This document shows positions 2,870-21,964 of a stretch of 64,000 nucleotides of DNA, in pieces; the first letter of the stretch is position 1; every line of letters starts with the position of its first letter. The notes beneath the pieces were generated by a model. That model worked only from the letters and a program-made list of their open reading frames with translations. It made no database searches and was not told the DNA's origin. The stretch is from NCBI RefSeq assembly GCF_006715635.1, contig NZ_VFNP01000001.1:1178001-1242000 (forward strand). Direction: 5' to 3'. Origin of the DNA: Streptomyces sp. SLBN-118. GTDB lineage: Bacteria > Actinomycetota > Actinomycetes > Streptomycetales > Streptomycetaceae. A program made the translations under genes and the position numbers.

Positions 2870-3166
2870 CAGTGCGGACGGCATCAAGATCGCCGCATCC
2901 ACCACCGGGAAATCCTCCGCGAGCACTGCATCCCACCCCCGCCGGAACCGCACAGCACCACCTCGGCCGACTTCCTACGCAGCCAGGCCGACGCCCTACT
3001 CGCCCGCGATCTCTTCGAGGCCCGCACTCCGACGCGGCACGCCTGTACGTCTTCTCGGGCATCGAGCACTCAACGAGGGCATCCGGAACCTGGGCGCCAC
3101 CGCACACCCGACAACGGACTGGATCGTGCAGCTCGGGCGCAACGGGACTGCCACGAAAACCCAGTT
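2870..3166 (+). pseudogene. Integrase-core (rve/DDE) transposase fragment
   Basis: Across two frames the plus strand reads EILREHCIPPPPEPHSTTSA, then DFLRSQADALLARDLFEA, and after a frameshift ARLYVFSGIEHSTR and LGATAHPTTDWIVQLGRN. These are the hallmark blocks of Streptomyces integrase-core transposases (first catalytic Asp region, then IEHxTRR and TAHPT). Both ends are missing, so it is dead. The end at about 3166 abuts the reverse-oriented IS3 remnant, which suggests one element jumped into the other. About 110 bp without recognisable genes separates it from the LuxR start. Confidence 0.7.
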
Positions 3167-3173
3167 CTCGATC

Positions 3174-3404
3174 TTCAACTCGTCGTCGCGAACCACTCGT
3201 TGTGCGGGCAGGGGATACGGCGCAGATCGGCTCGACACCACCGAAGCGGCCCCGCCTCTCGTCGGTGTCGGTCGTCCTGATCCCCAGCTTGGCGGCGACT
3301 GCCTTCATCGCAGCCCACTCGGTGTCGTACTCGGGCCGTACCGCGGCGACCATACGGACCGCGCGCTCGCGCAGCTCAAGAGGGTAAGGCGAGGACGTGC
3401 CATG
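3174..3404 (-). pseudogene. IS3-family orfA remnant with frameshift
   Basis: Reading leftward from the ATG at 3404 gives MARP, then after a one-base slip SPYPLELRERAVRMVAAVRP, EYDTEWAAMKAVAAKLGI and a degenerate tail. This is the N-terminal helix-turn-helix half of an IS3 OrfA. OrfB is missing. With the terminal repeat at 3420-3453 it forms the left end of a truncated IS3 element. Positions 3174-3335 repeat 241-402. Confidence 0.75.
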
Positions 3405-3419
3405 ACCCGATCCTCTCAA

Positions 3420-3453
3420 ATGATCGAGTCCCCACCGAACCCGGAACAGTTCA
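3420..3453 (-). mobile_element. IS3-family left terminal inverted repeat
   Basis: Read on the minus strand from 3453 the element begins TGAACTGTTCCGGGTTCGGT and then gggactcg. This has the TGAACnGnnCCGGGTTnG form found at the ends of IS3 elements of this genus; compare TGAACCGTTCCGGGTTTGAT at 17267 on the plus strand. The outermost TGA (3451-3453) is also the stop codon of the tannase-like gene. Confidence 0.7.
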
Positions 3454-5124
3454 CCCCTTGTAGCCCGTCACCTTCGCGACCCACGTGATGAAGTCGCCGG
3501 GGTCGACGTTGGCGGCGTGGCCCTGGTCCCAGTAGTACTCGTGGTTGACGTCGTCGCCCAGGTTGTCCACGGCGGCGGCAAGGTTGGCGGCGACCGTGAG
3601 CGATGTGTCGCTGTCATTGGTGCCGAGGCGGATCCACCAGTGCTTCGACCTGTTCGGGTTCTGCCTCTTGATGAAGTACATCGGGTTCATCAGATTGAGC
3701 AGCTCAGGGATGTCGCCGGCGAGTCGCTTGCTGGTGACGCCGGTGGTGTCGTTCTTGAGGCTGTACGCCGTGAAGTGGCGGGCCTTGGTCGTGCCCTCGC
3801 CGAACTCGTTGTTCTCGCCCGCCGACAGGTCGAAGGCGTCGAAGGCCGGCGTGGACTTCTTTCGCGTGCCCACGTGGGTGAGGTAGTCGGCCCAGGTGAA
3901 GGTCGCCTTGCCACCGGACCACGTGATGAACGTGTTCTTGGCCAGGTAGGTCGTGCGGGCGGAGTCCGACAGGGCCGCGAGGTACTTCGTGGCGGCCGGC
4001 TGGAGGTAGGTCTTCACCAGGTAGTCGTCGTAGTTGCGCGCCGTGAGCGGGCCGTAGCCGTTCAGGCCCTTCAGCTTGAGAGAAGCCTGGTATTCGGCGA
4101 ACTGGGACTGCAGCTCCTTGGACACGGTCTGGTCGACGACCTTGCCGGTGGCCTGCGTGACGTTGGTGCCCCAGTTGAACTCGTAGGCGCCGTCGGCGTG
4201 TTCGAGGTCGGTGATGGGGCACCAGGCGCCGGTGGCGAAGATCGCGTCGCTGGCGTCGGCCGCGCCCGCTTCCTTGAGGTACTTGGCGTAGTGGGGGCTG
4301 TCGCCGGACGCGCCGAGCAGGGCGGACGAGGCGCCGCCCGCGCTGGTGCCGGTGGAGACGATCCGGTTGGTGTTGCCGGGGATGCGGCCCTTGTTGAAGC
4401 GGACGTAACGCACCGCGGCCTTGAGGTCGACGATGACGGCCGGCGCTGTGCCGTAGTACTTGCCGTCCGAGTCGGTGAGGCTGCGGCCCCGCGTGCCCGG
4501 CTCGACGGCGACGTAGCCCGCCGCCAAGGCCAGCTTAGCGAGGTTGACCATCCCGTTGATACCTCCCGTGCCGCCATCGTGGGACGGGCCGCCGTCCGGC
4601 ATATCGCTCGGCAGACTGCCGTCGGTCGGCATGCCGCCGGGCATACCGTCGCCGCCGGACCCGCCGCCCATGTCGCCCATCTCCAGCGCGGCCTGACCCA
4701 CGCCAGTGGCCTTTGCCACGCTCGACGGCATGTAGGCGCCCACCGCGTTGGCGAGGACGATGGGGGCGCGGGTGGCGTCGACGGCCTTGCCGTCGATCTT
4801 GACGGGAACGCTGACGACCAGGCTCTGGTGAGTGTCGTCAGACGGGTTGGTGACGTAGTTGCGGGGCTTGTAGAAGTGGTACACCACCTCGTGGTCGTCG
4901 CCGGCCGCGTCAGTGATGGTCTCCGTCAGCTCCGTGTAGTCGTCCTTGTCGAAGACCAAGGCACCCGACGGCGCCGAGGACTTCGAGCCGCTCGGAGCCG
5001 AGGACTTCGAGTCGCTCGAACCGAACGCGTTTGCGTTCAGGGCGATACCGCCGACTGCCGCGACACCTGCGGTCACGCCGATCCCCGCGATGACGGTCCT
5101 GCGATTCACTGGCCTGTGATTCAC
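3451..5124 (-). CDS. Tat-exported subtype-B tannase-like serine esterase
   Basis: A 557-residue alpha/beta-hydrolase of the bacterial tannase-B type, which cleaves galloyl or related aromatic esters outside the cell. The chosen GTG start (5122-5124) has AGGAG seven bases upstream; the open frame reaching further upstream has no such site. The N-terminus carries NRRTVIAG followed by a hydrophobic stretch, a twin-arginine signal. The nucleophile elbow GTSAGG places Ser261. The C-terminal GTNDSD (Asp504) and DQGHAANVDP (His536) complete the triad. A Gly/Met-rich insert lies at about 150-190. The stop codon TGA is formed by the first bases of an IS3 terminus, so the natural C-terminus may be slightly altered although all catalytic residues precede it. 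Exact ester specificity cannot be read. Confidence 0.82.
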   Translation of the reverse strand: MNHRPVNRRTVIAGIGVTAGVAAVGGIALNANAFGSSDSKSSAPSGSKSSAPSGALVFDKDDYTELTETITDAAGDDHEVVYHFYKPRNYVTNPSDDTHQSLVVSVPVKIDGKAVDATRAPIVLANAVGAYMPSSVAKATGVGQAALEMGDMGGGSGGDGMPGGMPTDGSLPSDMPDGGPSHDGGTGGINGMVNLAKLALAAGYVAVEPGTRGRSLTDSDGKYYGTAPAVIVDLKAAVRYVRFNKGRIPGNTNRIVSTGTSAGGASSALLGASGDSPHYAKYLKEAGAADASDAIFATGAWCPITDLEHADGAYEFNWGTNVTQATGKVVDQTVSKELQSQFAEYQASLKLKGLNGYGPLTARNYDDYLVKTYLQPAATKYLAALSDSARTTYLAKNTFITWSGGKATFTWADYLTHVGTRKKSTPAFDAFDLSAGENNEFGEGTTKARHFTAYSLKNDTTGVTSKRLAGDIPELLNLMNPMYFIKRQNPNRSKHWWIRLGTNDSDTSLTVAANLAAAVDNLGDDVNHEYYWDQGHAANVDPGDFITWVAKVTGYKG

Positions 5125-5402
5125 TGAATTTCTCCTCGTTCGCGGCAGGCGTCGATCCGCCGCTCTGGTGGTTGTCGTACGCTCCGGAGACACACGGGGT
5201 GGCTCGGCCGTGGGCCGACGCGGCCACCACGGCGACGGCAAGGGTCCCGCCACGCAAGGGTGCGTCGCCCCACGATCATCCCCAGCGAATCTGAGAACGT
5301 GATTTGAACGATCTGAGAGAGGGCTGAAGGGTCGAGGGGGACCCGCGGCCGACACGTCGTACTCCAGCAGCAGTTCGCCATTTGTGCTGGTCGGAAAGCC
5401 AT

Positions 5403-5636
5403 CGGATTCCTCGTGTCGCGCGGCCGCTGGACACGGTGCCCCGATCGCCCGCGGCTGCCCCGTTCTTGAGCGCCCCCTCGCCTTGATCCGGCGCTCCTCC
5501 ACCCTCGTTGCCGGGCCGGGATATAGGCAGGGGGGAAGTACGTGTGCCACTACCCGCTCCGCGGCTACGCACCGCTGCGCTTATGGATGTCAAGCAGGGG
5601 TTGTGAGGTGACTGGCTGCCGCTGCGGTGGTCAGGA
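5403..5636 (-). repeat. IS110-family tail remnant, copy 1 (3' coding end plus conserved non-coding tail)
   Basis: Read on the minus strand, 5636-5590 encodes LLTTAAAASHLTTPA and a stop, the C-terminus of IS110-family transposases. About 190 bp of non-coding DNA follow. The whole block is repeated at 17551-17787, and the non-coding half (for example around cctatatcccggcc) is almost unchanged. In the IS1111 branch of this family a guide RNA is encoded beside the transposase, so the conserved non-coding tail may be a relic of such an RNA. Confidence 0.7.
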
Positions 5637-5721
5637 GCTGGTGCTTGGAATCCAGTGGGCTGATGTCCCGTCAGGGTGGCGGTGGTTGGTTACTCGCCTG
5701 ATCGGGGTGCGTTGAACTGGC

Positions 5722-5855
5722 ATGGAGACGGATGTCGAAGCTGCCGTGTGGGCTGCTGAGTTGGAGACGCTGCTGCGGGTGGGCGAGCGCTTCACCCGGG
5801 TCGGGCCAAGACGTCGAATGCGGGGCTATCTCAAACGCTACTCAGAATGGAAGAG
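5722..5855 (+). pseudogene. N-terminal remnant of an IS701-like transposase
   Basis: The plus frame from the ATG at 5722 reads AVWAAELETLLRVGERFTRV, GPRRRMRGYLKRY, the start of IS701-type DDE transposases (WxxELExL...RFxRxEPRRRxxxYxRGL). The match fades after about 45 residues and no catalytic domain follows. Confidence 0.6.
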
Positions 5856-5884
5856 TTCCGTTGATGATGCCGAGATCGAGGGCG

Positions 5885-6154
5885 TTAGAATGCTCTCGAC
5901 AATGCGGCCGTCAGGCTTACTATGAGCAGGCCGCGAAATGCCTCTATCGAAGGCGGGAGTGGCATCTCCTCAGAATTTCTGTATTCCGTCAGCAGATCCA
6001 GCAGATTTCGGTAGCCGCCTGCATCGTCGGTGATATTCTGCCTGGTCAGCAGCGAACCGATGTCGTAGACGAAGGTGACGTTGTCCGTGCGCACTATCCA
6101 GTCGATGCCGCAGTAAATCAAGATCTTCCTTCGATGTACAGTCCTACTCGACAC
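5885..6154 (-). CDS. Unrecognised 89-residue ORF in lower-GC DNA
   Basis: A GTG-started frame encodes a protein containing GIDWIVRTDNVTFVYDIGSL and LLDLLTEYRNSEEMPLPPSI. I recognise no family with confidence. The central block has the look of a beta-hairpin from an ATP-grasp-like domain, but that is only an impression. The DNA between about 5880 and 6450 uses noticeably more A/T at third positions than the rest of the window, which suggests a separate origin. The start overlaps the 3' end of the small ORF at 6144-6296 by 11 nt. It could be a fragment of a longer gene destroyed by the neighbouring insertion sequences. Confidence 0.3.
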   Translation of the reverse strand: MSSRTVHRRKILIYCGIDWIVRTDNVTFVYDIGSLLTRQNITDDAGGYRNLLDLLTEYRNSEEMPLPPSIEAFRGLLIVSLTAALSRAF

Positions 6155-6296
6155 TTACGTTGTCGTTGGCCCCGTCTCCATCCGGAGAATCGACTGGCAC
6201 GCGGAGTCTGCGGACAGGTTCGCTGTCCTTTACAGCTGGCAGTCGCTCACCATCGCGGCCGAAGTGCGTCGGAATACCGAGCGATATCGGTGTCAT
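6144..6296 (-). CDS. Possible 50-residue peptide, unrecognised
   Basis: From the ATG at 6294-6296 the reverse strand encodes MTPISLGIPTHFGRDGERLP and a hydrophilic tail ending GANDNVSVE. It overlaps the next frame (GTG at 6154) by 11 nt, an arrangement compatible with translational coupling. No convincing ribosome binding site is visible and I recognise no family. It is listed because it lies in an otherwise empty low-GC stretch beside a biosynthetic cluster. The remaining DNA (6297-6459) holds nothing I can identify. Confidence 0.2.
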   Translation of the reverse strand: MTPISLGIPTHFGRDGERLPAVKDSEPVRRLRVPVDSPDGDGANDNVSVE

Positions 6297-6459
6297 CCTT
6301 CACAGCGATCGGCCCCAAGCAGAGGGAGTTTTATACCTGATTCAGACTTCCCGTCGGCTTCAGCCGCATCTGCGAGGGCTGAATCACGTGTCTGCTCAAT
6401 TAGCGCGAGCGATCCTTGGACAAAACCAAGAGATGCATGACGACTCTCTACCGGGCTTG

Positions 6460-9456
6460 CTACACAGTCCCTCTGGCATTCTTGGGTTTGGCTGCCTGGG
6501 TGATGTGTTGGAGGGTGGGCTGGCTGATGAGTTGGCGGATCTTAGCCTGAAATTCTGCCTTGTCTTCATGGCCGACGATGTCGCGTGTGACGTGGTTGAT
6601 CATGGTGAGCAGTTCCAGCGAGTCGCCGCCGAGTTGCGTGAAGTCGGACTCCGGCGTGAGGGTAAGTATGTCGATTTCCAGTATTCTTGCCCAGATATCC
6701 GCTACTGCCCGTTCGACTGAGTCTTGGCAACTCTGCCGCCCCTTTCGTCTCAGCGTGCCGTGGCTGATGAGTGCGGGTAGGGCTGCGGTGTTGATCTTGC
6801 CGTTCACCGTGAGCGGGAAACTATCGAGGACACGGACAGCTGCGGGAACGAGATACGGAGGGAGGAGTTGCGCGGCGTGTTCCCGCATGCGTGCGGGTTC
6901 TGTGTCTCCTGTGATGTAGGCGCAGAGGACGGGGGGTCCGTCGTGGCGGATGGGTTTGGCCAGCACGATGGCCTGGGTGACGTCGGGGTGCGTTTCGAGC
7001 GCTGCTTCGACTTCTCGGGGTTCGATGCGGTGTCCGCGGATGGAGAGTTGCTCGTCATTGCGGCCGAGGAATTCGAGGCGTCCCTCGGGTGTGTGTCGGG
7101 CGAGGTCTCCGGTGCGGTAGACGCGGGTGCCGTCGGCGAGGTTGCGAAATCGTTCGCGCGTAAGCTCAGGACGGCCGAGGTAGCCGCGCGCCAGTTGGGC
7201 GGTGGCGAGGTGTATCTCGCCTCGCTCGCCGTGGGGGACGGGGATGCCACGGGGGTCGAGCAAATGGACGGCGGTGTTGTCGGCCGGCAGGCCGATGGGG
7301 ACGGCATAGCGTTCTGCGTCACGCTCAGGGTTGAAGGTGTGAGTGATGCAGCCGATGGTTGCTTCGGTGGGGCCGTACTCGTTGATGATGCGGCAGTCTG
7401 GGCCGAACATCTCCTGGGCGCGGGCGGCCAGTTTGCCTCGCAGTTGGTCGCCGCCGACGATCACGAGGCGGAAGCCTCGCGGTCGGAGGCCGAGATTCGT
7501 GATGAGCTCAAGGTGTGCGGGGGTGAGTTTGAGTGAGTTTATTCCTGAGGTGGTAAGCAGTTCGGTGAGGGTGGTGTGGTCGGGTTCGTCGGAGATGAGG
7601 GTGATGCTGCCGCCGGTCAGGAGTGGCAGCAGGTGGGCGGTACCGGTGAGGTCGAAGGCAAGCGAGGTGAAGACCGCGAAATGGCTGTCTTCGTCGATGC
7701 GGTAGTGACGTATGGCCCAGCGCGCGTAGTCGGTGAGTGCTGTGTGCTCGACCATGACACCTTTGGGCCTGCCGGTAGACCCTGAGGTGTAGATGACGTA
7801 TGCGAGGTCGCTCGGCCCTGGGCGGCGTGGGCAAGGGATGTCCGTGTGTAGTTCCCGTGCAAGGAAGCTGTCGATGAGGTCCTCTAGCACGAGTGTGGGG
7901 CAGGGAAGCTCGGCGGCCTGTGAATCGCGGCCGGCCAGGCAGAGGGCGGCGTCCGCGTCTGCCAGGAGTGAAGCCGTACGGCCGTGGGGGTGGTGGACAT
8001 CGAGTGGGAGATAGGCGGCGCCGACCTTGAGTACGGCCCATAGCCCGATGATCGCTGCAGCGGTCCTTCGGCTGAGGATGCCGATGATGGAGCCGGGTCC
8101 TGCGCCGTGTTGTCGAAGCACTGCGGCGATGGCATCAGAGCGTCGGTCCAACTCCGCGTAGCTGAGTTGGCCGTCGGACCCGGTGATAGCGGTCGCGTCG
8201 GGAGTACGCCTCATCTGCTGTTCCAGCATCTGCGTAAGGGTCGTCAGCGGCTGTGGAATCTGCCGGCCCGTGACAGACGGACCGCGACGAGCCGTGGGTA
8301 CCAGCTCCTCAGTGATGGCGTCGAGAAGCCTCTGAGCCCTCTGGGCAGCACCGGGTTCGGCGGGGCGGGCCATGGTGAGCCGGGTGATACCGCGGAACTC
8401 CGTCGCGGCCAGGCTGAGAGGTATGAAGGGGACTTGCTGGGGCAGCGTGTACACATCGGTGGCCTGGAACCCCGGTGCCTGCAGGTCTTCTTCCCCGATG
8501 CGGCCGAGATGAGTGATCAGGGCCGAACACGGATAGCGGCCCAGAACACGGGTGCTCTTGTCGGCCATGCCCAGGATGGCACTCAGCGGCTTCAGCGGGA
8601 TATTGAGCGCGGCGGCCTCACTGCCCCTTGCAAGCTCATGGTTGTGCTCCAGAGCATGCAGCAGGCGCTCATGCCATTGCTCCCACCTGTCCCCGGGCTG
8701 ACCGTCGAGGAAAACCGGAAGGCTGAGATTGGCCGTAGAGCGCAGACCAGGGCGGTGTCGGCGCAGATCGACCGGAACCATGATGCGCGAGACATCGCCG
8801 GTGATGTGTGTGAGTGCGGTGGCCGCCTTTGCGACCACTGCTGTGTGCGAACCGTCTACTTTCCGCTGCAGCCAACTCTGGCCAGGGCCACCGGCCCTGG
8901 CGGCGAGTGGCGAGCGGAACCGGGGAACCAGCGCAGGCCGCTGCCCCTGGGTGCCCATCTCGTCGAGAAGAGCCAGGTCATACAGTGGAGACGGGGCGCC
9001 CAGGGGCTCCTGGCCGCGCAGAGCGCGGAAGGTGTCCAGGATCCAATCGAGGACACCACGGCCATCCATGACCGCGTGATGAGCACGGAAGAGCAACGCC
9101 GCCTGATCGCCTTCCCTCAGCACTACCTCGCAGCTGCCCGCGGCACTCGCATCAAGCACCCGCGACGTCTGCGTACCCAATGAATTCACGCATCGGATTG
9201 CAGGCGCCCGCCCGCTATCCACCCACACCCTGCCGCGCCGTACCAGCCGAACCCCTGGGCATGCAGCTGCCGAACGGGCAACTGCCTCCGTCAGCCTGCC
9301 GGCGCCGATAGTGCCGGTTCCCTCAACGACCATCTGGATGGTAAACGGTGGCGTCGACCGCTCCCCCGCAAGATAGACCCACTCATTCGGAGACACAGGC
9401 CGTCGAAATACTTTCGATGCCGACAGCGGAGAACCCTGCGGCTGGTGTTTCGTCAT
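6460..9456 (-). CDS. Single-module NRPS (C-A-PCP), predicted Asn-activating; lstE-like
   Basis: A 998-residue synthetase with three domains. The condensation-like domain (about 1-395) has active-site HHAVMDG (His126-Gly132). The adenylation domain spans about 405-895, with YTSGSTGRPKG (556-566), NEYGPTEAT, YRTGD and NGK (Lys887). The carrier domain has GGDSLELL (Ser946). The specificity residues, aligned on the GrsA scheme, are D602, L603, T606, K643, I666, G668, E693, I701, G702 and K887. They read DLTKIGEIGK, one conservative class away from the asparagine code DLTKLGEVGK; Glu at the seventh position argues against Asp. There is no thioesterase, so the C domain probably passes Asn to the hydroxyl of a beta-hydroxy or beta-lactone acyl chain, forming an ester. 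The ATG start follows an AAAGGAAAGAG site. A 131-bp gap, which could hold a promoter, separates it from the acetyltransferase upstream. Confidence 0.9.
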   Translation of the reverse strand: MTKHQPQGSPLSASKVFRRPVSPNEWVYLAGERSTPPFTIQMVVEGTGTIGAGRLTEAVARSAAACPGVRLVRRGRVWVDSGRAPAIRCVNSLGTQTSRVLDASAAGSCEVVLREGDQAALLFRAHHAVMDGRGVLDWILDTFRALRGQEPLGAPSPLYDLALLDEMGTQGQRPALVPRFRSPLAARAGGPGQSWLQRKVDGSHTAVVAKAATALTHITGDVSRIMVPVDLRRHRPGLRSTANLSLPVFLDGQPGDRWEQWHERLLHALEHNHELARGSEAAALNIPLKPLSAILGMADKSTRVLGRYPCSALITHLGRIGEEDLQAPGFQATDVYTLPQQVPFIPLSLAATEFRGITRLTMARPAEPGAAQRAQRLLDAITEELVPTARRGPSVTGRQIPQPLTTLTQMLEQQMRRTPDATAITGSDGQLSYAELDRRSDAIAAVLRQHGAGPGSIIGILSRRTAAAIIGLWAVLKVGAAYLPLDVHHPHGRTASLLADADAALCLAGRDSQAAELPCPTLVLEDLIDSFLARELHTDIPCPRRPGPSDLAYVIYTSGSTGRPKGVMVEHTALTDYARWAIRHYRIDEDSHFAVFTSLAFDLTGTAHLLPLLTGGSITLISDEPDHTTLTELLTTSGINSLKLTPAHLELITNLGLRPRGFRLVIVGGDQLRGKLAARAQEMFGPDCRIINEYGPTEATIGCITHTFNPERDAERYAVPIGLPADNTAVHLLDPRGIPVPHGERGEIHLATAQLARGYLGRPELTRERFRNLADGTRVYRTGDLARHTPEGRLEFLGRNDEQLSIRGHRIEPREVEAALETHPDVTQAIVLAKPIRHDGPPVLCAYITGDTEPARMREHAAQLLPPYLVPAAVRVLDSFPLTVNGKINTAALPALISHGTLRRKGRQSCQDSVERAVADIWARILEIDILTLTPESDFTQLGGDSLELLTMINHVTRDIVGHEDKAEFQAKIRQLISQPTLQHITQAAKPKNARGTV

Positions 9457-9587
9457 TCTCTTTCCTTTGCGGCGTACCGCCTAGAAGCAGAACCTTCATC
9501 ACAGGAGACACTTAATGAGGGACCTAATTCCGCACTTGTACGGGTGGACTGGCCGCTGCTCGTGAGCCGCCGGGATTTTGATCGTCG

Positions 9588-10181
9588 TCAGACGCGCTTC
9601 TCGAGTATCTTGCATGGCCACGGTTTGTCTGTGCCGGGCGTGTGGACGTCTAGCGACTGCGCGGGGTGGAAGCCTAGCTTCTGGTAGTGCTTGACCAGTG
9701 CGCCGTCGCCGTCGTAGCAGTCTGTTCTGAGGAGACCGATACCGCGGCGGGCTGCTTGCGCGTGGGCATCACTAACGAGAGCTTGACCAATCCCCCGGCC
9801 GACCAGTTTGCGGTCGGTGACGAGTAGCATGATGTACAACTCCCGCTCCTCCATAGGGGCTACATAAGGCTGAGGCGTTTCCGACAGGACACAAACGCCC
9901 GCAAAGCTGTCATTGAGTTCCGCGACTCTGACAGTCATGTTTGTCGTGTACCGTCGGATGCGCCGTACAGAGGCGGGCCGTGAGGACCAAGGTTTCGAGC
10001 CCCATTGCTCGCTTCTTCCGCGAGCTGTCAGCCATGCGGTAGCCCTGTCCAGCAAGTTGAGGGTGGCAAGGGCGTCGTCTGGTCCCCCTGCTCGAATCTC
10101 CGGTGCTTCCAATGTGCGGTCCTTGGGAGAATTGTCGCCATGGGTTGCACAACCCAAATACATCGAACCGGATTCGCTCAA
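9588..10181 (-). CDS. GNAT-family N-acetyltransferase, candidate amino-acid tailoring enzyme of the cluster
   Basis: About 190 residues with a GNAT fold. Beta-strand 4 is ELYIMLLVTDRKL, followed by the acetyl-CoA pyrophosphate loop VGRGIGQAL, and the C-terminal motif HYQKLGFHP. The enzyme would move an acetyl group from acetyl-CoA to an amine. It lies in the minus-strand set between the reductase (53 bp upstream) and the NRPS (131 bp downstream), the region where the lipstatin pathway needs an N-formyltransferase. I infer that it N-acetylates the asparaginyl group. The start is uncertain: TTG at 10181 opens the frame, ATG at 10163 is an alternative, and neither has a strong ribosome binding site. 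A resistance or housekeeping role cannot be excluded. Confidence 0.75.
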   Translation of the reverse strand: MSESGSMYLGCATHGDNSPKDRTLEAPEIRAGGPDDALATLNLLDRATAWLTARGRSEQWGSKPWSSRPASVRRIRRYTTNMTVRVAELNDSFAGVCVLSETPQPYVAPMEERELYIMLLVTDRKLVGRGIGQALVSDAHAQAARRGIGLLRTDCYDGDGALVKHYQKLGFHPAQSLDVHTPGTDKPWPCKILEKRV

Positions 10182-10233
10182 CGGGAATCACTGCAATGCG
10201 GGTTGGGGCACCGTCTCTGGCGCGGTTGACTGT

Positions 10234-11271
10234 TCATGCCTTGACTCTGCGGATGTATTCGTTGATGCCGCCGATGCTGTCGATCCACTCGGTCAGCCGC
10301 GTCATCCCGGTTTCGTGGTCGATTTCCGGTGCCACGAGATCACGCCGTGCCGCGAAGGTGTCGTAGGTCGTCGAGCGGGTCAGCAGAGCCAGCGAGTAGC
10401 GCGAGAGCGGTGGTGACGAACGCCGGGCCAGTGGTGGAAGTTTCCAGAGCATGTCCGTCGTGAACGCTGCGGCGCGCAGCAGGCCGAGGGGCACCTGCTT
10501 GGTAGGCGGCACGGCACCGAAGCGCAAGGCCAGTTCGGCCAGGGTGCTCCAGACCTCCACCGGCTCGGGATCCGCGATGAAGTACGCCCTGCCGCCGATC
10601 CCTTCGGCACGCGCGGCGCGGACACTGGCGGCGGCGGCGTTGTCGCAGTGGCAGAGCGAGGCGTGGACCTGCCGCCCGCCGGAGAGGTCCGGCAGGCTCC
10701 CGGTCATCATCTGCGCGAGAAGACGGGGCATGAACCCGGAGTGGTCGCGTGGGCCCCATACGGCGCGGGGCCGCAGGGCGACCGTGGTGAAATCGGGTCG
10801 GTCGCTGGCAAGCACCAGTCGCTCGGCGGCCGCCTTGGTCTCCGAGTAGAGGTTGAGGAAGCGCCGGGGGTACGGCTCGCTCTCGTCGATACCGAGCCGG
10901 TCGCCGTCGCGGATGCCCATCAGAGCGCTGGGACTGCTGATGAAGACGAATCTGCGGGCTCCCGCCCGGCGGGCCGCCGTCATAAGACGCCGGGTCCCCT
11001 CGACGTTCTCGTCCCGGAACTGGGCTCGGGTGCCCTGGTCGGTGACCCTGGCTGCACTGTGGTGCACCGCCTCGATGCCGTCCACCGCAGCACGCAGCGA
11101 CGCAGTGTCCCGAAGGTCTCCGTAGGCGAACTCGATGCCGGGAACAGTGCGCAGGTACCGCAGGTCGCTTTCCCTGCGGACCAGTACGCGCACCTTGTCA
11201 CCGGCGCGCTGACTGGCGTCGACGATGTGGCTGCCCAGGAATCCGGACGCGCCCGTCACCAGTACCTTCAT
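10234..11271 (-). CDS. NAD(P)-dependent 3-beta-HSD/extended-SDR reductase, lstD/oleD-like
   Basis: A 345-residue extended short-chain dehydrogenase. The N-terminus MKVLVTGASGFLGSHI carries the dinucleotide-binding GxxGxxG. The catalytic Ser lies in FISSPSA and the YxxxK pair in YSETK. In olefin and beta-lactone pathways the OleD/LstD enzyme reduces the beta-keto acyl product of the condensing enzyme to the 2-alkyl-3-hydroxy acid, which the AMP ligase then closes. The ATG (11269-11271) overlaps the stop of the upstream AMP ligase by four bases (ATGA), so the two are translationally coupled. The frame extends further upstream but only inside the ligase gene. Confidence 0.88.
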   Translation of the reverse strand: MKVLVTGASGFLGSHIVDASQRAGDKVRVLVRRESDLRYLRTVPGIEFAYGDLRDTASLRAAVDGIEAVHHSAARVTDQGTRAQFRDENVEGTRRLMTAARRAGARRFVFISSPSALMGIRDGDRLGIDESEPYPRRFLNLYSETKAAAERLVLASDRPDFTTVALRPRAVWGPRDHSGFMPRLLAQMMTGSLPDLSGGRQVHASLCHCDNAAAASVRAARAEGIGGRAYFIADPEPVEVWSTLAELALRFGAVPPTKQVPLGLLRAAAFTTDMLWKLPPLARRSSPPLSRYSLALLTRSTTYDTFAARRDLVAPEIDHETGMTRLTEWIDSIGGINEYIRRVKA

Positions 11272-13235
11272 GTCGAAGCGGCCTTTCTCCTGCGGAGGGC
11301 CGTCCGCCACCACGTCGCTCCGAAGATCATGGTGAGAGCGGCGGTCGCTCGTGGTGTGCGTCCGGTGGCGAGTTCCTGCTCCGCGTCCAGGGCGGCCGGT
11401 ATCTGCGCCGCGTGGGCGACGACGCTCAGGAAGAAGTCGACCCACCACAGTGCGGTGAGTGCCGGATGGTCCCAGGGCAGGAACGGCCAGGCACCGATGT
11501 AGGCCCAGCCCGCCAGGGGCAGGGCACGCAGCGCGAGGTCCCCGGCCGTCGGGCGGAGTCGTCCCGTGAGGCGGTCCTCGGCCCAGCCCGCCAGCAACTC
11601 CCTGCGAATCTTGGCGTTGTGCCGGATGTCTACGGGGAAGCCCGGGTGCGGAAGGAAATGGGTGATCGGCTTGGTCATGGGGTTGCTCGTACCAAGGCCG
11701 CGCAACTCCTGCTCGATCCGGGGCCATTGTGCGGGGTCGGTGCCCGGCGCCAGCTCCACACACACCACCGGTTGTTGCCGGCCGTGCAGTCCGATGCCCA
11801 CCAGGGCGGTGCGTTGCACCGCAGGATGGGCGTTGAAGGCGCTCTCACAGAGCACCGTGTGGAGATCGCCGTCGGCGGTACGGACCCGGTGACTCTTTCG
11901 TCCGCAGAACCAGATCCGTCCCTCCGCATCGATCCACCCGACGTCGCCGGTGCGGTGCCAGCGGTCGTCACCGTCCTGGATCTTGTGCTCGGCGTCCGCC
12001 TGGGGAGACCTGAAGTACCGGGGGCTGACCGCCGGGCCGCGTGCGACGATCTCGCCCGGTTCCCCCGGTGCAGTCGGCAGGTCCGGAGTCCAGTGGGGCA
12101 CGGGTCCGTCAGTGATCCTGATGGTGCGCAGTGTGATGCCCGGTGCGGGACGGCCCAGACACACCCCGAGTCCCGCGGCCGGCCCTTCAGCGAGCCAGGT
12201 GAGTGCCGCACGGCTCTCCAACTGGGCCATCGGCAGGGCCTCGGTGGCCCCATAGGTGCTGTACACCCGTGCCTCGTCGGTCAGTACGGCGCGCAGCTCG
12301 CGCATCAGACCGGGGCTCACCGGAGCACCGCCCGAGATGACCAGGCGCAACGAGGGCAACAGAGTGCCGACCATCGCGAGATGCGCGGCAAGCGGTGCCA
12401 ACAGCGCCGGGGAGGCAAACATGGCAGTGACCGAGAAGCGCCCTATCGCGTCCGTCAGGGCGGCCGGGTCGGCGGCGCCGACCCGTGCCATGTCCATCTT
12501 CGGGACGACCACCATGCGTCCGGCGATCAAGTCGAAGACCCCCATCAAGGGCATGGTGACCAGGGTGGTCGTCAACTCGTCGGTGAAGTGGCCCTCTTCG
12601 GCGCTGTCGGCCATGCCGCGCAGCATGCCGACCGTGAGTTCCACCGGCTTGGCCGGACCGGTGCTGCCCGTGGTGTATGCGATGAGCGCGAGGTCGTCAG
12701 ACTCGGTCTCCGCGGCGGGCAACTCCCCCAGGTCGGTGCCGAGGGCGATCAGCTCCGTGAGGCCCGAGCCGTCTGTGCGGCCCACCGTGACCCGGGACTG
12801 CACCCCCGCGAAGGCGCGCGGACGCAGCCGTCGCAGCACGTGTGCCGCCGGGACACCGATGAAAGCCTCCACCTCCGCCCGTTGGAAGCAGTCGAGCATG
12901 CGGCTCAGCCCCATGCCCGGATCGACCACCACCGGCACGGCGCCGAGGTGCATCATGGCGAAGACCAGCGTCAGCAGGTCACCGCCGGGCGGTACCAGCA
13001 GGGCGGTACGGGTGCCGCGGCGAATGCCGTGCGCCTCCAGCCCGGCCGAGCAGGTCGCGACCCGGGAGGCGAGTTCGGCGTAGTCGACCGAGGCGTAGGC
13101 CGCCCGGCCCGACGGCTCCTTGCGGTCACCGTCGGGGTGGATGATGGCGAGCGCGTCCGGCGTGCGGGCCGCGTGCCGGGCGAGGAGCCCGGCCAGTGAC
13201 GTCTGCCGGTGGGCCTGTGGCGATCCGGCTGGCAT
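11268..13235 (-). CDS. Acyl-AMP ligase / beta-lactone synthetase-like (lstC/oleC type) with C-terminal membrane tail
   Basis: A 655-residue ANL-superfamily enzyme. The nucleotide loop is YTTGSTGPAKPVEL, the acyl-binding core is YSTYGATEALPM, and the hinge is WHRTGDVGWIDAEGRIWFCG. OleC/LstC proteins adenylate a beta-hydroxy acid and close it to a beta-lactone, and this is the role inferred here. Unusually, about 90 residues follow the ANL fold (roughly 565-655). They hold two hydrophobic segments, including LALRALPLAGWAYIGAWPFL and WWVDFFLSVVAHAAQI, which would anchor the protein to the membrane. The ATG overlaps the upstream stop (TGATG) and its own stop overlaps the reductase start (ATGA). 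Confidence 0.85.
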   Translation of the reverse strand: MPAGSPQAHRQTSLAGLLARHAARTPDALAIIHPDGDRKEPSGRAAYASVDYAELASRVATCSAGLEAHGIRRGTRTALLVPPGGDLLTLVFAMMHLGAVPVVVDPGMGLSRMLDCFQRAEVEAFIGVPAAHVLRRLRPRAFAGVQSRVTVGRTDGSGLTELIALGTDLGELPAAETESDDLALIAYTTGSTGPAKPVELTVGMLRGMADSAEEGHFTDELTTTLVTMPLMGVFDLIAGRMVVVPKMDMARVGAADPAALTDAIGRFSVTAMFASPALLAPLAAHLAMVGTLLPSLRLVISGGAPVSPGLMRELRAVLTDEARVYSTYGATEALPMAQLESRAALTWLAEGPAAGLGVCLGRPAPGITLRTIRITDGPVPHWTPDLPTAPGEPGEIVARGPAVSPRYFRSPQADAEHKIQDGDDRWHRTGDVGWIDAEGRIWFCGRKSHRVRTADGDLHTVLCESAFNAHPAVQRTALVGIGLHGRQQPVVCVELAPGTDPAQWPRIEQELRGLGTSNPMTKPITHFLPHPGFPVDIRHNAKIRRELLAGWAEDRLTGRLRPTAGDLALRALPLAGWAYIGAWPFLPWDHPALTALWWVDFFLSVVAHAAQIPAALDAEQELATGRTPRATAALTMIFGATWWRTALRRRKAAST

Positions 13236-14203
13236 CAGCGGGCGGTTCCGTCTGCGGTGCCGGTCAACCGGTAGAGAGAAGCCGCCGACGTCGGTCCGGC
13301 GCCGACCGCGACGAACAGGATCGCGTCGTATGCCGCGAGCCGTCCTGCGAGCTGCGCCTGCCGGTACCCGTGGACGAGCGCCGACGTGTGCGGGTCGCCG
13401 TGGACGCCCTCGACGGTGATGACGGCATCGGACGCAAGTCCCAGCCGCTTGGCGAGCTGTGTCGGGAACTCGCGTGAGGGCTGTGAGGTGACGAGCAGCA
13501 CACGATCCAACTCCACCCCAGAGCCATGTCCGGCATTGGCCCCTGTTGCAGCCGCGGCGCTCTCCCGCACAAGGACGACATCCACCGCATCGACCGCGAG
13601 ACCCAGCAGCCGCTCAACTGCATCGTCGTCACGATCGACAATTGCCGTGTTCCGACCGTCGGAACCCACCTCGCCCATCGGCAGATAGCCATTCACCCCA
13701 TAGCCGCCAAGACCCGACGAACGATGGTGGACACGGCCGAAGCCGCGGGCGTCCGTTGTGTGCTCCAGCAGTAGCGCCGCTCCGGTACTCGCGTAGGGGA
13801 AAGTGTCCGTTCCAGCCCGGGACGGGTCCATCGAAGGATGCGTGTCGGAGGACACCACCAGCACCCGGCGGGCACTGCCGGTGGACAACAAGGCGTCCGC
13901 CGCCTGGACAGCATTGAGCAGGCCGCAGGCCCCGTTCATCAGGTCGAACGAGAACGCGGCCCGCTTGTCGGCAGAGCGGAGGTAGTCGAGGTGGATGCCG
14001 ATCCGCTTCTGGATCAGCGCTGCGACGGACGGCTCGACGATGTTGGAGTCCCGGTAGACACCGACGTTGATGAGGACGTCGACGTCCGCTGCAGTGATCC
14101 CAGCGTGCCCCAAGCACAGGACACCGGCGGCCGCCGCATGGCCGATCGAACTGCCCGAGCCGTCGGTCGGGGCCAACGCGGCCGAGGTGATGACGGTCGC
14201 CAT
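13235..14203 (-). CDS. KAS III-like protein lacking catalytic His/Asn, lstB-like partner subunit
   Basis: A 322-residue thiolase-fold protein. A Cys is kept (NGACG, Cys93), but the usual His region reads LLVTSQPSREF and the usual Asn region reads EGVHGDPHTS, so the catalytic His and Asn are gone. In the lipstatin system LstB is such a partner of LstA and lends a glutamate to the LstA active site. Here Glu57 in NIVEPSVAALIQ is the candidate. The ATG at 14201-14203 is chosen because GGAGG lies seven bases upstream; an ATG two codons earlier overlaps the lstA-like stop (ATGA) but sits too close to that site. Translation is coupled on both sides. Confidence 0.87.
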   Translation of the reverse strand: MATVITSAALAPTDGSGSSIGHAAAAGVLCLGHAGITAADVDVLINVGVYRDSNIVEPSVAALIQKRIGIHLDYLRSADKRAAFSFDLMNGACGLLNAVQAADALLSTGSARRVLVVSSDTHPSMDPSRAGTDTFPYASTGAALLLEHTTDARGFGRVHHRSSGLGGYGVNGYLPMGEVGSDGRNTAIVDRDDDAVERLLGLAVDAVDVVLVRESAAAATGANAGHGSGVELDRVLLVTSQPSREFPTQLAKRLGLASDAVITVEGVHGDPHTSALVHGYRQAQLAGRLAAYDAILFVAVGAGPTSAASLYRLTGTADGTAR

Positions 14204-14205
14204 GA

Positions 14206-15255
14206 TCATACCTCCAGAGAGGAAACGGTCGCGGACAGAAAACCGGTCACCACACCCGAGGCGGCGGGCACCATGAGCACCTTCGAGCCCTTGGGTATCC
14301 AACCCTCCGCAAGTGCCTGATGCAGCACCAAGTAGTGGGAAGTGGTCGCAGTGTTCGCAAACCTGTCGAGGACACTCAACGACTGCGGCATGGGCACTCC
14401 AAACTGGCGCCTACCCACCAAATTGATGAAGTCGACGAAGCGGCTGCCCACTTGATGCTGGATTACGAAGTCGTATCCCTCGCCTGCAAATGTGCTGCCC
14501 CGCTCGGCGAGCTGGTCGCGATGGAAAGCAGGCCACAAGGAAAGCCGGTCCTGCGCATGCATCTCCTTGTTGTTCGTATACATCGCCAAGCCACCCGTAT
14601 CATCACTCGGCATCCCCAGACACAGGTGCGAATACTGAGAGCACGTCATCAACTCAACATCGTGAATGATATCCCGCTCGTCCACGGCACAATCCATCAC
14701 GACAGCGGCAGCGGAATCACCCACCGACATGGATGCGAACTGCTCGTCGCGGCTGTCCTCCATCTCGCGCGCCGCGGTGAAGGCAATGGGCGTGATCTGC
14801 TCACCGCTGACCACCAGCCCGTTACGTACGGCGCCGGAGCGAATCATCCGGTCCAGCAGAAGAACACCCGTCGTCATTCCCGCACAAGCATTGGACACAT
14901 CAAAGTGGATGGCCTTGAACGCGCCGAGCTCACCAGCAATACGAAATGCGAATGACGGCTCGAACTGCAGACGACGTCCATCCGCAAGCCGACTGATAGA
15001 GCAGGAGATCACAACATCAATCTCCCCAGCGGCGTAGCGCGAGCGCTCCAGACAGTCCCGGGCGGCCGCAACAGCCATCGTCAGGCTGTCCTCTGGGCTC
15101 TCCAGAGCATCATCGGCTACACGCCGCTCCATCATTCCCGTGATCTTCGCGAGGTCGAACTTCGGAGCCTTCTCCAAACACCCAAGAAGCTCCTCCGTGC
15201 CCATAACCGTCGAGGGCAGATAGGCCCCGATGGCTTCTAACCGGCTACTACTCAC
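14206..15255 (-). CDS. KAS III-like acyl-CoA condensing enzyme, lstA/oleA-like catalytic subunit
   Basis: A 349-residue thiolase-fold enzyme with a complete triad: Cys124 (SNACAGMTTG), His267 (VIQHQVGS) and Asn301 (NTATTSHY). OleA/LstA enzymes join two acyl-CoAs in a head-to-head Claisen condensation to a 2-alkyl-3-keto acid. In lipstatin the partners are a C14 beta-hydroxy dienoyl chain and octanoyl-CoA. It is the first gene of the operon. The GTG start has GGGAG four bases upstream, and the next gene overlaps its stop. An ordinary fatty-acid FabH role is unlikely given the neighbouring lstB-, lstC- and lstD-like genes. Confidence 0.9.
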   Translation of the reverse strand: MSSSRLEAIGAYLPSTVMGTEELLGCLEKAPKFDLAKITGMMERRVADDALESPEDSLTMAVAAARDCLERSRYAAGEIDVVISCSISRLADGRRLQFEPSFAFRIAGELGAFKAIHFDVSNACAGMTTGVLLLDRMIRSGAVRNGLVVSGEQITPIAFTAAREMEDSRDEQFASMSVGDSAAAVVMDCAVDERDIIHDVELMTCSQYSHLCLGMPSDDTGGLAMYTNNKEMHAQDRLSLWPAFHRDQLAERGSTFAGEGYDFVIQHQVGSRFVDFINLVGRRQFGVPMPQSLSVLDRFANTATTSHYLVLHQALAEGWIPKGSKVLMVPAASGVVTGFLSATVSSLEV

Positions 15256-15572
15256 AACACTCCCTCAAAGAATAGTCGCCCCGAATAACACGGCGGCGAA
15301 AGTACGACCCTGCCGCCATCTCACACAGATTCCCCGGACTCTCGAGATTCGAGAAAAGCGGGGAACGCCGTCAAGGGCCGCTCAGGTGGGTACATCCCGG
15401 GACCACCCCTCTCCAGCAGCTGCGATTTCGAGCCGGGAGAAGGGGGATCCCCATACACTCCCTCGATGACGAAGCCCTCGTGCCGGCTGATACAGGGTCA
15501 CTGCCAGCCGATCACCAGATCGCCACCAAGCGAACGCTCACTCATCATGCAGACGCGGCAGGCGGTTGAGCA
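15256..15572. promoter_or_regulatory. Intergenic promoter region of the beta-lactone operon
   Basis: These 317 bp separate the truncated LAL regulator from the lstA-like gene, and I see no credible ORF. They contain the perfect palindrome GGGGATCCCC at 15443-15452 and the imperfect repeat ctcgagattcgag near 15340. This is the only stretch upstream of the lst-like genes large enough to hold the operon promoter. No -35/-10 pair is clear. Confidence 0.4.
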
Positions 15573-17258
15573 TCACGACTTCTCGTGATCTTTGCGCAAC
15601 GCCAGACGGGTAAGCCCCACTCGACTGGTGACGCCAAGCTTCCTGAACACTTTTCGCAAGTGACTGTCGACGGTGTGTGGCGAGACCGACAGAGCAGCGG
15701 CGACTGCGTGATTGGTCATCCCCTGTGTCACGAGTTCAGCCACCCGACGCTCCGCCCGGGTCAGCGCACCCCAGCCGGTATCGTCGCCAGGTCGCGGCGT
15801 CATATGACGCACACCTACGCCGCGCAGAAGAGCCTTCACCCGCTCGGCAGCACGCACTACACCCAGGCTGTCGTAAATGCCCAAGGCTTCCTGCCCGAAC
15901 ACAGATGCCGCACTCCGGCGACCGACAGCATGCTCAGCCTTAGCGGCGTCCTCCAACGCAGACGCAACGGCAAGCTTCCGGGGGCTGCCCCGATACGCCT
16001 GCACCGCAACCCGCAACGCATCCAGGTCAGAGTCCAGCAAACCCTGCGCATGGGCTGCAGCACCGACAAGAGATGGCACGGAACGGTTAGCCTGTGCAAG
16101 CCCGACCAACGCGGCGCACACACGATCCGCCTCCCGGACAGCTCCTGACCTGATAAGTATGCGCACCATCTGCGGCCCTACTGGCGGATCATCGGTAAGC
16201 AGTAGGAGTCGGCTCGGTAGTACTCCTGCCAACTGGACAGCCTTCCGCGCTGCCCGCTCGTCCTCACCGCATGCGTCATATACGAGCGCCAGGTCCCACC
16301 CCACTTGATCTTCCACAGCGTTGAGGCCTTGTGACATCAGCCGATCAGCTCTGCGCATGTATCTGGTCGCATCAGCCAGGTTCCCGCGATGCACGGCAAC
16401 TTGGGAAAGCACCCCGAGCATGCAGACGTTGCGCACATGGGCAGTGAGGCGAGATGCCCCTTCAAGGCCGAGTCGGGCCTCAGTTTCTGCCTGATCCAGC
16501 CGTCCTTCCGACAGTCGCAACTTGGCACGAAAACAGTGCCAGAGAGGGAGAGACCAACAGGCACCAGCGGACTCGGCCTCTTGCTGACCACGTTCAAGAG
16601 CGGACTCAGCCTCTGAGAACCGATCCACAGCAGCGGCAGCCCTGGCCGCCCACAACCGAGGGTGGCGATGCCGTTCCACCCCCCAGCCCTCTTCACCGGA
16701 CCTCAGCGCCTCCCTGGCCGCCGAGACGGAGTCTTCAAGCCTCCCCTCAGCTCGGGCAACCGCGCTCTGAGCGAGGACCGCAAACACCATGGCAGCACGA
16801 TCACCACAAGAACGCGCCAAGCCGGCGGCCGCATCCGCAGCACACCGAGCCGCACCTACGTCGGACGCATACAACAAGCCATGAGCTTCGACAGCAAGCA
16901 GAGAAGCCCTCACGTCGTCCGGTACGCCCTCTAAAGCAAGCGCCCGCCGCACGCGGGCGACGACAACGTCCGCGCGACCTGTGTACATGAGCGCCTCAGC
17001 AAGGCCGGCTTCGATCGACGCCTTCGTTGCAGTGTCCATCTCAAGGCGCAAGGCGGACCTCCCCAACAGCCGGGCTTCAGTGAGCCTCCCCGCAAATGAC
17101 AGCAGGCGCACTGCTTCCGCAAGTAGTTGAGGTCGAGCACTGTGCCCCGCTCCCACAAGCCCCAGAGTGCGGATCAACACATTCGCCGCCGTATCAGGCG
17201 ACCGTACAGCTATGTCCCTTGCAGCGTCACTCAACACCGCCAGCACTTGTCTGTCCAC
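15573..17258 (-). CDS. LuxR/LAL-type regulator, N-terminally truncated by an IS3 element
   Basis: About 560 residues corresponding to the C-terminal part of a large ATP-binding LuxR (LAL) regulator. A helical TPR-like array begins at AARDIAVRSPDTAANVLIRT, and a C-terminal LuxR helix-turn-helix follows (LTRAERRVAELVTQGMTNHA onward). LAL proteins are normally around 900 residues with Walker A and B motifs in the first 250; that part is missing. The homologous reading frame meets the IS3 terminal repeat at 17267, so the loss is due to the insertion. The GTG at 17258 is a formal start without a ribosome binding site. The DNA-binding domain is intact, so residual function cannot be excluded. Its position directly upstream of the lst-like operon makes it the natural pathway regulator. 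Confidence 0.75.
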   Translation of the reverse strand: MDRQVLAVLSDAARDIAVRSPDTAANVLIRTLGLVGAGHSARPQLLAEAVRLLSFAGRLTEARLLGRSALRLEMDTATKASIEAGLAEALMYTGRADVVVARVRRALALEGVPDDVRASLLAVEAHGLLYASDVGAARCAADAAAGLARSCGDRAAMVFAVLAQSAVARAEGRLEDSVSAAREALRSGEEGWGVERHRHPRLWAARAAAAVDRFSEAESALERGQQEAESAGACWSLPLWHCFRAKLRLSEGRLDQAETEARLGLEGASRLTAHVRNVCMLGVLSQVAVHRGNLADATRYMRRADRLMSQGLNAVEDQVGWDLALVYDACGEDERAARKAVQLAGVLPSRLLLLTDDPPVGPQMVRILIRSGAVREADRVCAALVGLAQANRSVPSLVGAAAHAQGLLDSDLDALRVAVQAYRGSPRKLAVASALEDAAKAEHAVGRRSAASVFGQEALGIYDSLGVVRAAERVKALLRGVGVRHMTPRPGDDTGWGALTRAERRVAELVTQGMTNHAVAAALSVSPHTVDSHLRKVFRKLGVTSRVGLTRLALRKDHEKS

Positions 17259-17266
17259 TATCGGTA

Positions 17267-17500
17267 TGAACCGTTCCGGGTTTGATCGAGACTTTAGGTT
17301 GTGACTGTGACCTGGAGATTTGCGTTCTGCTGGTGGTAGGCGGCCTCGTAATTCTGCGGGTGGGACGTGGGCCCATCTCACTGTGCAGGCGTCAGTGGTT
17401 GAACCAGTCGACCCACACGACGGTGGCCAACTCGACCTCGGACAGGGATTTCCAGGTCCGCTGGGGCTTGATCACATCGGTTTGGTCCTGATCCCAGGTG
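17267..17500 (-). pseudogene. IS3-family orfB C-terminal fragment with right terminal repeat
   Basis: Reading leftward, KPQRTWKSLSEVELATVVWV, DWFNH is the conserved C-terminal region of IS3 OrfB (WxSxxEVExATxxWVDWFNHRRLH). After a frame change the tail AAYHQQNANLQVTVTT and a stop follow. The terminal repeat at 17267, TGAACCGTTCCGGGTTTGAT on the plus strand, is the outer end. The catalytic core and orfA are gone. The inner end of the terminal repeat exactly delimits the loss of the LAL regulator. Confidence 0.78.
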
Positions 17501-17550
17501 TCGCTGGGTTGCCGACATGGCCGTGTCCATCTTTCCTCGTGTTCGACGAT

Positions 17551-17787
17551 CGAATTCCTCGTGTCGCGCAGTGGCGGGACACGGTGCGCCCGATCCCCCG
17601 CGGGTGCCCGTTCTTGAGCGTCCCCCTTGCCTGGAATCCGGCGCTCCTCCACCCTCGTTGCCGGGCCGGGATATAGGCAGGGGGGAAGTACGTGTGCCAC
17701 TACCCGCTCCGCGGCTACGCACCCGCTTCGCTTATGGATGTCAAGCAGCTGTTGTGAGGTGACTCGAGGCTGCTGCGGTGGTCAGGA
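17551..17787 (-). repeat. IS110-family tail remnant, copy 2
   Basis: This is the second copy of the block at 5403-5636, in the same orientation about 12.1 kb away. It ends with the transposase stop at 17741-17743 (HLTTAA, stop), followed leftward by the conserved non-coding tail. Part of the upstream transposase coding sequence survives here, which identifies the family for both copies. Confidence 0.75.
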
Positions 17788-18126
17788 CGTGGTAGATCTC
17801 GCGGGCGACGAACCGCTTGAGGCAGCGGATGATCTCCTTCTTCGACAGGCCCTCTGTGGTGCGTCGTTCCATGTAGGCGCGGGTGCGTTGGTCCCAGCGC
17901 AGGTGGCAAAGCACGATCCGTTAGAGGGCTGCGTTCGAGGCCCGCTCATCGCCCCGGTTGAGGCGGTGGCGGTGAGTCAAGCGGAGTGGCGGGTGCGGAA
18001 GTTCAGCAGATAGTCAGGGGTCGCTCCGGTGAAGGAGTAAATCGTCCTGAAGAAACTGTCAGTGGTGCGACGCCGCAGACCATTGCGAACGCGGCCTCGG
18101 AGCGGAGCCGGTCGGGATTGTCGCCC
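17741..18126 (-). pseudogene. IS110-family transposase C-terminal half, broken
   Basis: In successive frames the reverse strand reads GDNPDRLRSEAAFAMVCGVA, PLTVSSGR, then HRLNRGDERASNAAL, an in-frame stop, then RIVLCHLRWDQRTRAYMERR and TTEGLSKKEIIRCLKRFVAR, EIYHVLTTAAASSHLTTAA. These are the transposase_20 domain blocks of IS110 elements, including the RLNRGG-like and KEIIRCLKR motifs. At least one frameshift and one stop disrupt it, and the N-terminal RuvC-like DEDD domain is absent. Confidence 0.85.
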
Positions 18127-18139
18127 GCGGTGGGCCATA

Positions 18140-18200
18140 CACGTTCGCCAGATACGCAGTCCGCACAGCCGTTCCAAGATCAGTGATCTACTCAGCCATC
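18140..18200. repeat. Short repeated IS-end-like sequence containing a palindrome (second copy 29150-29211)
   Basis: About 60 bp running through cagtccgcac and ccgttccaagatcagtgatc to tactcag are found again at 29150-29211 in the same orientation. Both contain the perfect palindrome AGATCAGTGATCT. The flanks differ abruptly after tactcag, as at the end of a transposable element. I cannot name the element. The rest of 18127-18339 holds nothing else I can support. Confidence 0.55.
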
Positions 18201-18339
18201 GGCTTCGCTGTCGTGGTGAACAGCACCCGCAGCGGCTCCGAACCCAGCCGCTGCCGGGCCCTGAACAGCGGCCACTCTGCCGCAACGTGCGTGATGCCGG
18301 AGCTTACGCCCGGATCAGATGAGGGACGTTGAGGGTCTG

Positions 18340-18640
18340 TTGTGCCGACGGGATCTGTCGGGGACGCGGATGCGTCTTGGGTGTGTGCGACTGGCGGGTC
18401 AGGGGCGCACTGTCGCGGAAGTTGCCTCGATCCTGGAGGTTCACCCGGTGACGGTCCTCACGGCGGTGCACCGCTTCGAGGCCGGTGGCGCGCTGCCATG
18501 GCGGATGCGTCCCGCAGCGGGCGGCCGCCGAAGGACACCCGGGCAGACCTCGACGCCTTGGAAGCAATGTTGGACGAGAGCGCCGCGTTGGGCGGCCCTG
18601 CGTGGACGCTCCAACGCACCCGCACCAGCGTGCGGCACAA
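18340..18640 (+). pseudogene. IS630-like transposase N-terminal remnant, frameshifted
   Basis: One plus frame reads RLAGQGRTVAEVASILEVHP and VTVLTAVHRFEAGG, a helix-turn-helix typical of IS630-type transposases. Another frame continues DASRSGRPPKDTRADLDALE and AMLDESAALGGPAWTL. A frameshift near 18490 separates the two. No DDE domain follows. Confidence 0.65.
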
Positions 18641-18673
18641 GGCCGACGAAGCCCTCCAGCAGATCGCAAAGGA

Positions 18674-18958: not shown

Positions 18959-19030
18959 CCCAGCCCCCGAAAATGCGCCACCGCCCCGCTACCAGGCAAC
19001 ATGCCCAATGACAGGCTTTTCAGACGCCCT

Positions 19031-21868: not shown

Positions 21869-21886
21869 CGCGCTACCTTTCCTGTG

Positions 21887-21900
21887 TGACAACGTTGTCA
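21887..21900. promoter_or_regulatory. Palindromic operator TGACAACGTTGTCA upstream of the GH92 gene
   Basis: A perfect 14-bp palindrome 18 bp before the mannosidase start codon. The same site with one central change (TGACAACGATGTCA) lies upstream of the second GH92 gene at 28829-28842. Size and symmetry suit a LacI- or ROK-family sugar regulator, which is not encoded in the visible part of this locus. Confidence 0.7.
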
Positions 21901-21964
21901 GATGCACGGGGACTGGGCGTCAGCGCCGGAGTACCCGCGCACTTCGCCCACCCCGGCAAGAGAG

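Follow-up and report, generated by a model that had tools for sequence, protein, structure and literature searches.

What does a lipstatin-type gene unit make when an acetyltransferase stands where a formyltransferase would be expected? This question is raised by six genes on the minus strand of a 64,000-nucleotide stretch of DNA from Streptomyces sp. SLBN-118 (contig NZ_VFNP01000001.1, positions 1,178,001 to 1,242,000), hereafter termed the window. The source genome comprises two contigs totalling 7.79 Mb. Read from 15255 to 6460, the genes encode two KAS III-like proteins (KASa and KASb), an AMP ligase, a reductase, a GNAT acetyltransferase and a single-module nonribosomal peptide synthetase (NRPS). 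Lipstatin is the parent of the obesity drug orlistat, and esterastin, produced by S. lavendulae MD4-C1, is an N-acetyl-asparaginyl inhibitor of esterases and lipases known from chemistry. The product is predicted, with a probability of roughly 0.72, to be a lipstatin-type beta-lactone with an N-acetyl-asparagine head group, i.e. esterastin or a close analogue; the chance that it is esterastin itself is put at about even. To call the unit an esterastin cluster is a good hypothesis, drawn from sequence comparison.

In the pathway that we infer in full, from each chemical step and the step order to the lipid chains and the product, KASa and KASb would carry out a head-to-head condensation of two fatty acyl-CoAs, the reductase would reduce the 3-oxo group, and the ligase would adenylate the acid and close the beta-lactone ring. 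The NRPS would activate asparagine (Asn), its N-terminal HHxxxDG domain would esterify the lipid hydroxyl with it, and the GNAT would acetylate the Asn amine in place of the lipstatin clusters' formyltransferase.

The conserved six-gene unit and its chassis

KASa (14206..15255; PF08545/PF08541) is OleA/LstA-like and aligns with FabH at the catalytic triad Cys124, His267 and Asn301. Its LstB-like partner KASb (13235..14209), whose start overlaps the KASa stop, has lost the triad: the equivalent places hold Ala94, with a Cys one residue on, Ser242 and Asp272, while E59 is kept. In the alignment of related loci the KASa triad is present in 41 of 41 rows, and His and Asn are missing from the KASb triad columns in all 39 readable rows (two of the 41 are gapped); three KASb rows have a His one residue on from the triad column. 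Glu followed by Pro is retained in KASa and KASb alike in 41 of 41 rows, and this Glu is the catalytic base in OleA and LstB. Structure prediction for KASb is of low confidence (predicted local distance difference test, pLDDT, 50).

The next two genes encode an OleC/LstC-like AMP ligase (11268..13235), a predicted beta-lactone synthetase, and an OleD/LstD-like 3-oxoacyl reductase (10234..11271; PF01073). Both are under the strict Ole equivalog cut-offs. The ligase scores 564.6 bits with NCBIfam PRK09274, over the cut-off of 478, and 465 and 395 bits with the olefin beta-lactone synthetase models, under their cut-offs of 900 and 850. For the reductase the OleD model scores best, at 199 bits (cut-off 580), and the best NCBIfam model for KASa is PRK09258, at 123 bits and likewise under its cut-off of 285.

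Start and stop codons overlap among the first four genes, as ATGA, TGATG and ATGA. For the reductase the true start codon is the ATG at position 11271, which is coupled to the stop of the ligase gene; a 509-residue open reading frame at 10234-11763 begins too early. The GNAT (9588..10181; PF00583) and the NRPS (6460..9456) are uncoupled, being preceded by gaps of 52 and 131 bp. The exact GNAT start is uncertain, and the alignment with its closest counterpart begins at residue 23. A sequence-only reading of this DNA had listed the six minus-strand genes, translational coupling of the first four, a KAS III pair with one full and one lost triad, and a lipstatin-type chassis. All six genes are present, the overlaps can be read directly, the alignment confirms the triad states, and the family models find the chassis OleA-, OleC- and OleD-like.

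All six genes recur in identical order, GNAT and Asn-type adenylation code included, at locus L103 in a genome (G437) of another Streptomycetaceae genus. Because the order is shared with a genome of another genus, the arrangement is more than chance. When L103 was compared by blastn with window positions 3001-22000, three pieces of similarity were found, all within 6512-15246 and none elsewhere in the 19 kb. Since homology is confined to this span, the conserved unit comprises these six genes. L103 differs from the window in its surroundings, no flanking homology being detected.

The unit resembles the lipstatin operon (lstA-lstF) of Streptomyces toxytricini in its KAS III-like pair with one triad-less member, its ligase, its reductase and its single-module NRPS. 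Unlike that operon, it has an Asn-type rather than a Leu-type adenylation domain, a GNAT between reductase and NRPS, and no formyltransferase; four formyltransferase queries found no match within the 64-kb window at E <= 1e-6. Where lstF is made part of the definition of the lst cluster, the present cluster counts as a variant of it and not as a member. With OleABCD the unit shares KAS III head-to-head condensation and the OleD reductase and OleC beta-lactone synthetase families, but it has a triad-less KAS partner and an added NRPS and GNAT, and it lacks OleB.

Could the genes instead serve olefin (Ole) synthesis or another fatty-acid pathway, with neighbours that are there by chance, and make no amino-acyl beta-lactone? 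Ole or Ole-related models are the best or near-best matches of KASa, ligase and reductase. Related loci were collected by tblastn; the 43 obtained, the window and a second cluster of the same genome included, became 41 when L101 and L058 were dropped as duplicates of L029 and L032. Four of them (L037, L116, L119 and L120; KASa 33-53% identical) have a KAS pair without detected ligase, reductase or full lst-type NRPS, so that the KAS pair alone does not define a pathway. Nevertheless, an Ole-type origin of the product is very improbable: no OleB or other hydrolase lies in the conserved six-gene unit, and a single-module NRPS with readable code follows the reductase in 30 of the 41 loci, with a partial NRPS in L065, L109, L114, L117 and L118.

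Adenylation code and N-terminal domain of the NRPS

The ten-residue code of the window adenylation (A) domain is DLTKIGEIGK, and that of L103, L061 and L062 is DLTKVGEIGK. Asn A domains have DLTK(L/V/I)GEVGK and aspartate (Asp) A domains DLTKVGHIGK. Because Glu occupies the seventh place, the code, compared with these, speaks for Asn over Asp.

The NRPS had been described as a condensation, adenylation and peptidyl carrier protein (C-A-PCP) module. The A and PCP assignments stand; the C assignment finds no support in Pfam, the N-terminal ~400 residues (window 8260-9456) being without a Condensation match. None of ten members tested, the window's included, matches PF00668 in this domain. It carries an HHxxxDG motif, and H127, D131 and G134 are invariant in all 36 NRPSs compared, two of which come from other cluster kinds. 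The best Pfam matches of the window domain are sub-threshold (G6B, E 0.018; WS/DGAT, E 0.029); for the set of ten, Erythro-docking ranks first (E 0.0015, in three of ten). Searches of the PDB gave a best E value of 0.23 with the sequence and of 0.89 with a profile. Judged by its place and motif, the domain should be ester-forming. It is possibly an undescribed family of ester-forming domains. The Pfam scan of the NRPS reported no thioesterase domain.

Codes and capping enzymes in related loci

The A-domain code is readable in 30 of the 41 loci. In the other eleven (L036, L037, L065, L070, L109, L114 and L116-L120) either the contig ends or a full NRPS of the lst type was not detected. Four loci on plasmids (L137-L140, which head a list of 103 records) bring the total to 34; H5 and H6 (Rhodococcus, 60%) were left out. 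L137-L140 are lipstatin-type clusters on large linear Streptomyces plasmid records. With the own genome counted in each of the overlapping sets, KASb reaches E <= 1e-30 in 18 of 392 Streptomyces genomes; KASa reaches E <= 1e-60 in 21 of the 394 genomes searched for the family and in 6 of the 394 searched for the class.

Codes of the DLM, DIF, DII or DVF type are present in 30 of the 34 loci, and a lipstatin-type formyltransferase accompanies all 30. In L068 it is visible on the extended flank (L146), and in L107 it is placed between reductase and NRPS. GNATs in these 30 loci were sought with two query GNATs only, other GNAT families not being searched for. The Asn-type code is found in the remaining four, the window, L103, L062 and L061, and the first three of these have a GNAT instead of a formyltransferase. 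An lst-type formyltransferase has no match in the L103 genome (about 99% complete), and in the L062 genome (G257, about 99% complete) the search gave only an 82-residue stretch at 31%. The L062 GNAT start overlaps the NRPS stop, a position different from that of the window GNAT, and the two proteins are alike only in general fold motifs. L061 (10223-13941) predicts an N-formyl-asparaginyl beta-lactone.

The GNAT of L103 is 71% identical to that of the window and has the same place between reductase and NRPS. Its dN/dS between the two loci is ~0.21, and because the other five genes span 0.12-0.29, a range that includes this value, the gene is retained by purifying selection.

The second lst-type cluster of the source genome (L033/L034, C1:568060-576836) has the code DLMAHGIVAK and a KASa 80% identical to that of the window; a formyltransferase gene (C1:576156-576836) follows its NRPS. 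A GMC oxidoreductase gene comes after this cluster. Together with L029 (Kitasatospora aureofaciens CPD02), L030 (S. wuyuanensis), L031 (Streptomyces sp. I6) and L032 (S. pacificus), it is close to the window unit in KASa (77-80% identical), in the reductase (about 77-85%; in L031 two pieces, 77% and 73%) and in the order of the first four genes. All of these differ from the window in the NRPS (~39-42% identical), in DLM-type codes and in a formyltransferase 3' of the NRPS.

Several points weigh against an acetylated asparagine head group. The Asn assignment depends on A-domain code tables. L061 couples the Asn code with a formyltransferase, and because it keeps this enzyme, the Asn code alone does not imply an acetyl cap. 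The association of GNAT with Asn would reflect only two independent recruitments, since the window and L103 share one. The window GNAT, a putative acetyltransferase, belongs to a family with members in 26 of the 60 other genomes searched at E <= 1e-25 (38-45% identity) and in 37 of 60 at E <= 1e-4; none of these 26 has an lst-type KASa in that genome set. As the family is widespread in genomes without that KASa, a common Streptomyces GNAT is the probable origin of the gene. Its structure prediction is poor (pLDDT 38). A weak terminator-like hairpin of 8 pairs, 3 of them G-C, separates reductase and GNAT (10183-10161), and because of it the GNAT need not share a transcript with the upstream genes. 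A general scan gave one promoter-like site against 1.9 expected, and ten terminator-like sites against 5.2 (s.d. 2.6); it was not used. Finally, the formyltransferase of the second cluster might act in trans.

Four of these points, namely the formyltransferase encoded elsewhere in the genome, the pairing seen in L061, the commonness of the GNAT family and the hairpin, favour an N-formyl-asparaginyl beta-lactone, the GNAT being a passenger or having another role. This product is nevertheless unlikely, given that L103 has the GNAT in a genome with no lst-type formyltransferase match and that the GNAT holds the same place in both loci under purifying selection. It is equally doubtful that the same chassis and Asn are combined with a GNAT that moves another acyl group or acts elsewhere, giving an analogue other than esterastin. 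The substrate of a GNAT is not readable from sequence, and the generic similarity of the window and L062 enzymes would allow for this; on the other hand, in both cases the same code occurs with a GNAT and without a formyltransferase, which points to the same amine.

The N-acetyl-asparaginyl lipstatin-type product proposed by the sequence-only reading is partly borne out, by the chassis, the Asn-type code, the conserved GNAT and the parallel in L062, and is opposed by the formyltransferase of L061. As to acetyl addition, a GNAT is present in the formyltransferase's stead and is conserved in L103; its role in acetylating Asn is a predicted one.

Exchange of the NRPS and the surroundings of the cluster

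Quick trees were made of 30 rows for the comparison of KASa with NRPS, and of 36 rows for the parts of the NRPS. The KASa tree places the window and L103 among the DLM/formyltransferase loci, in a group of 12 rows with support 100 in which they are not resolved as sisters; L061 and L062 group with the remaining 16 rows, 18 rows in all, again with support 100. The NRPS tree unites the window, L103, L061 and L062 in a single clade (support 100). Forcing the four Asn loci together on the KASa data is rejected (approximately unbiased test, p-AU 0.003), the forced group being defined by NRPS code, though with KASa identities known beforehand. Because the NRPS and KAS III trees conflict in this way, the Asn NRPS has passed between chassis. 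The tree of the N-terminal part and that of the A-PCP part each unite the four loci with support 99, and since both parts keep them together, it is the entire NRPS gene that has moved. The NRPSs of S. atratus and S. angustmyceticus adjoin the four Asn NRPSs in the tree, and because they are on long branches, kinship with the donor is only possible. The S. atratus NRPS (code DLTKVGEIGK) belongs to a different, polyketide-linked cluster and lies beside a TauD/TfdA dioxygenase. Low G+C content at third codon positions was considered as a sign of late arrival of the GNAT (0.66) and NRPS (0.73), and was rejected because KASa is also low (0.71).

Upstream of KASa is a LuxR-type regulator gene (15573..17381, minus strand), whose membership of the cluster is unsure; sequence comparison found no counterpart around L103. 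A direct repeat of ~245 bp brackets the cluster and the LuxR gene, with its upstream copy at 17549..17793 and its downstream copy, 90.7% identical, at 5401..5642. A third, partial copy lies 147 kb away at C1:1342677-1342859 (182 of 245 bases, 92%). An IS4/5-type (DUF4096) transposase fragment is at 18674-18958. The flanking repeats and the transposase fragment suggest acquisition or rearrangement of the cluster region. On the strand opposite to the fragment, the open reading frame 18319-18834 resembles by eye the start of a helix-turn-helix transposase.

A BD-FAE (PF20434) alpha/beta hydrolase at 3451-5550 was considered as a self-protection or OleB member of the cluster. It was rejected: no homolog was found in L103 or in the flanks L147 and L148, and the protein shows no similarity to the plasmid-cluster esterase at E <= 1e-5. 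That putative esterase (L137 11438-12532; PF00756) has homologs in L138, L140, L069 and L139, near DIF-type clusters, and is possibly a self-protection gene.

Somewhat favoured, across the loci compared, is a reading in which lipstatin-type beta-lactones evolve new head groups by cassette exchange: a single lineage of Asn-type NRPS would occur on two different KAS/ligase/reductase chassis, and GNATs of separate origins would have displaced the N-capping enzyme on at least two occasions. Formyl and acetyl, and Asn and non-Asn, versions would then exist on one scaffold, two of them in one strain. If the N-acetyl-asparaginyl reading is correct, the unit would be a candidate gene cluster for esterastin, with three sister clusters to compare, and would offer natural cases of amino-acid and cap swaps on the scaffold of orlistat. 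A strain in which an Asn/GNAT cluster and a formyltransferase cluster occur together would also be a ready test of cross-talk.

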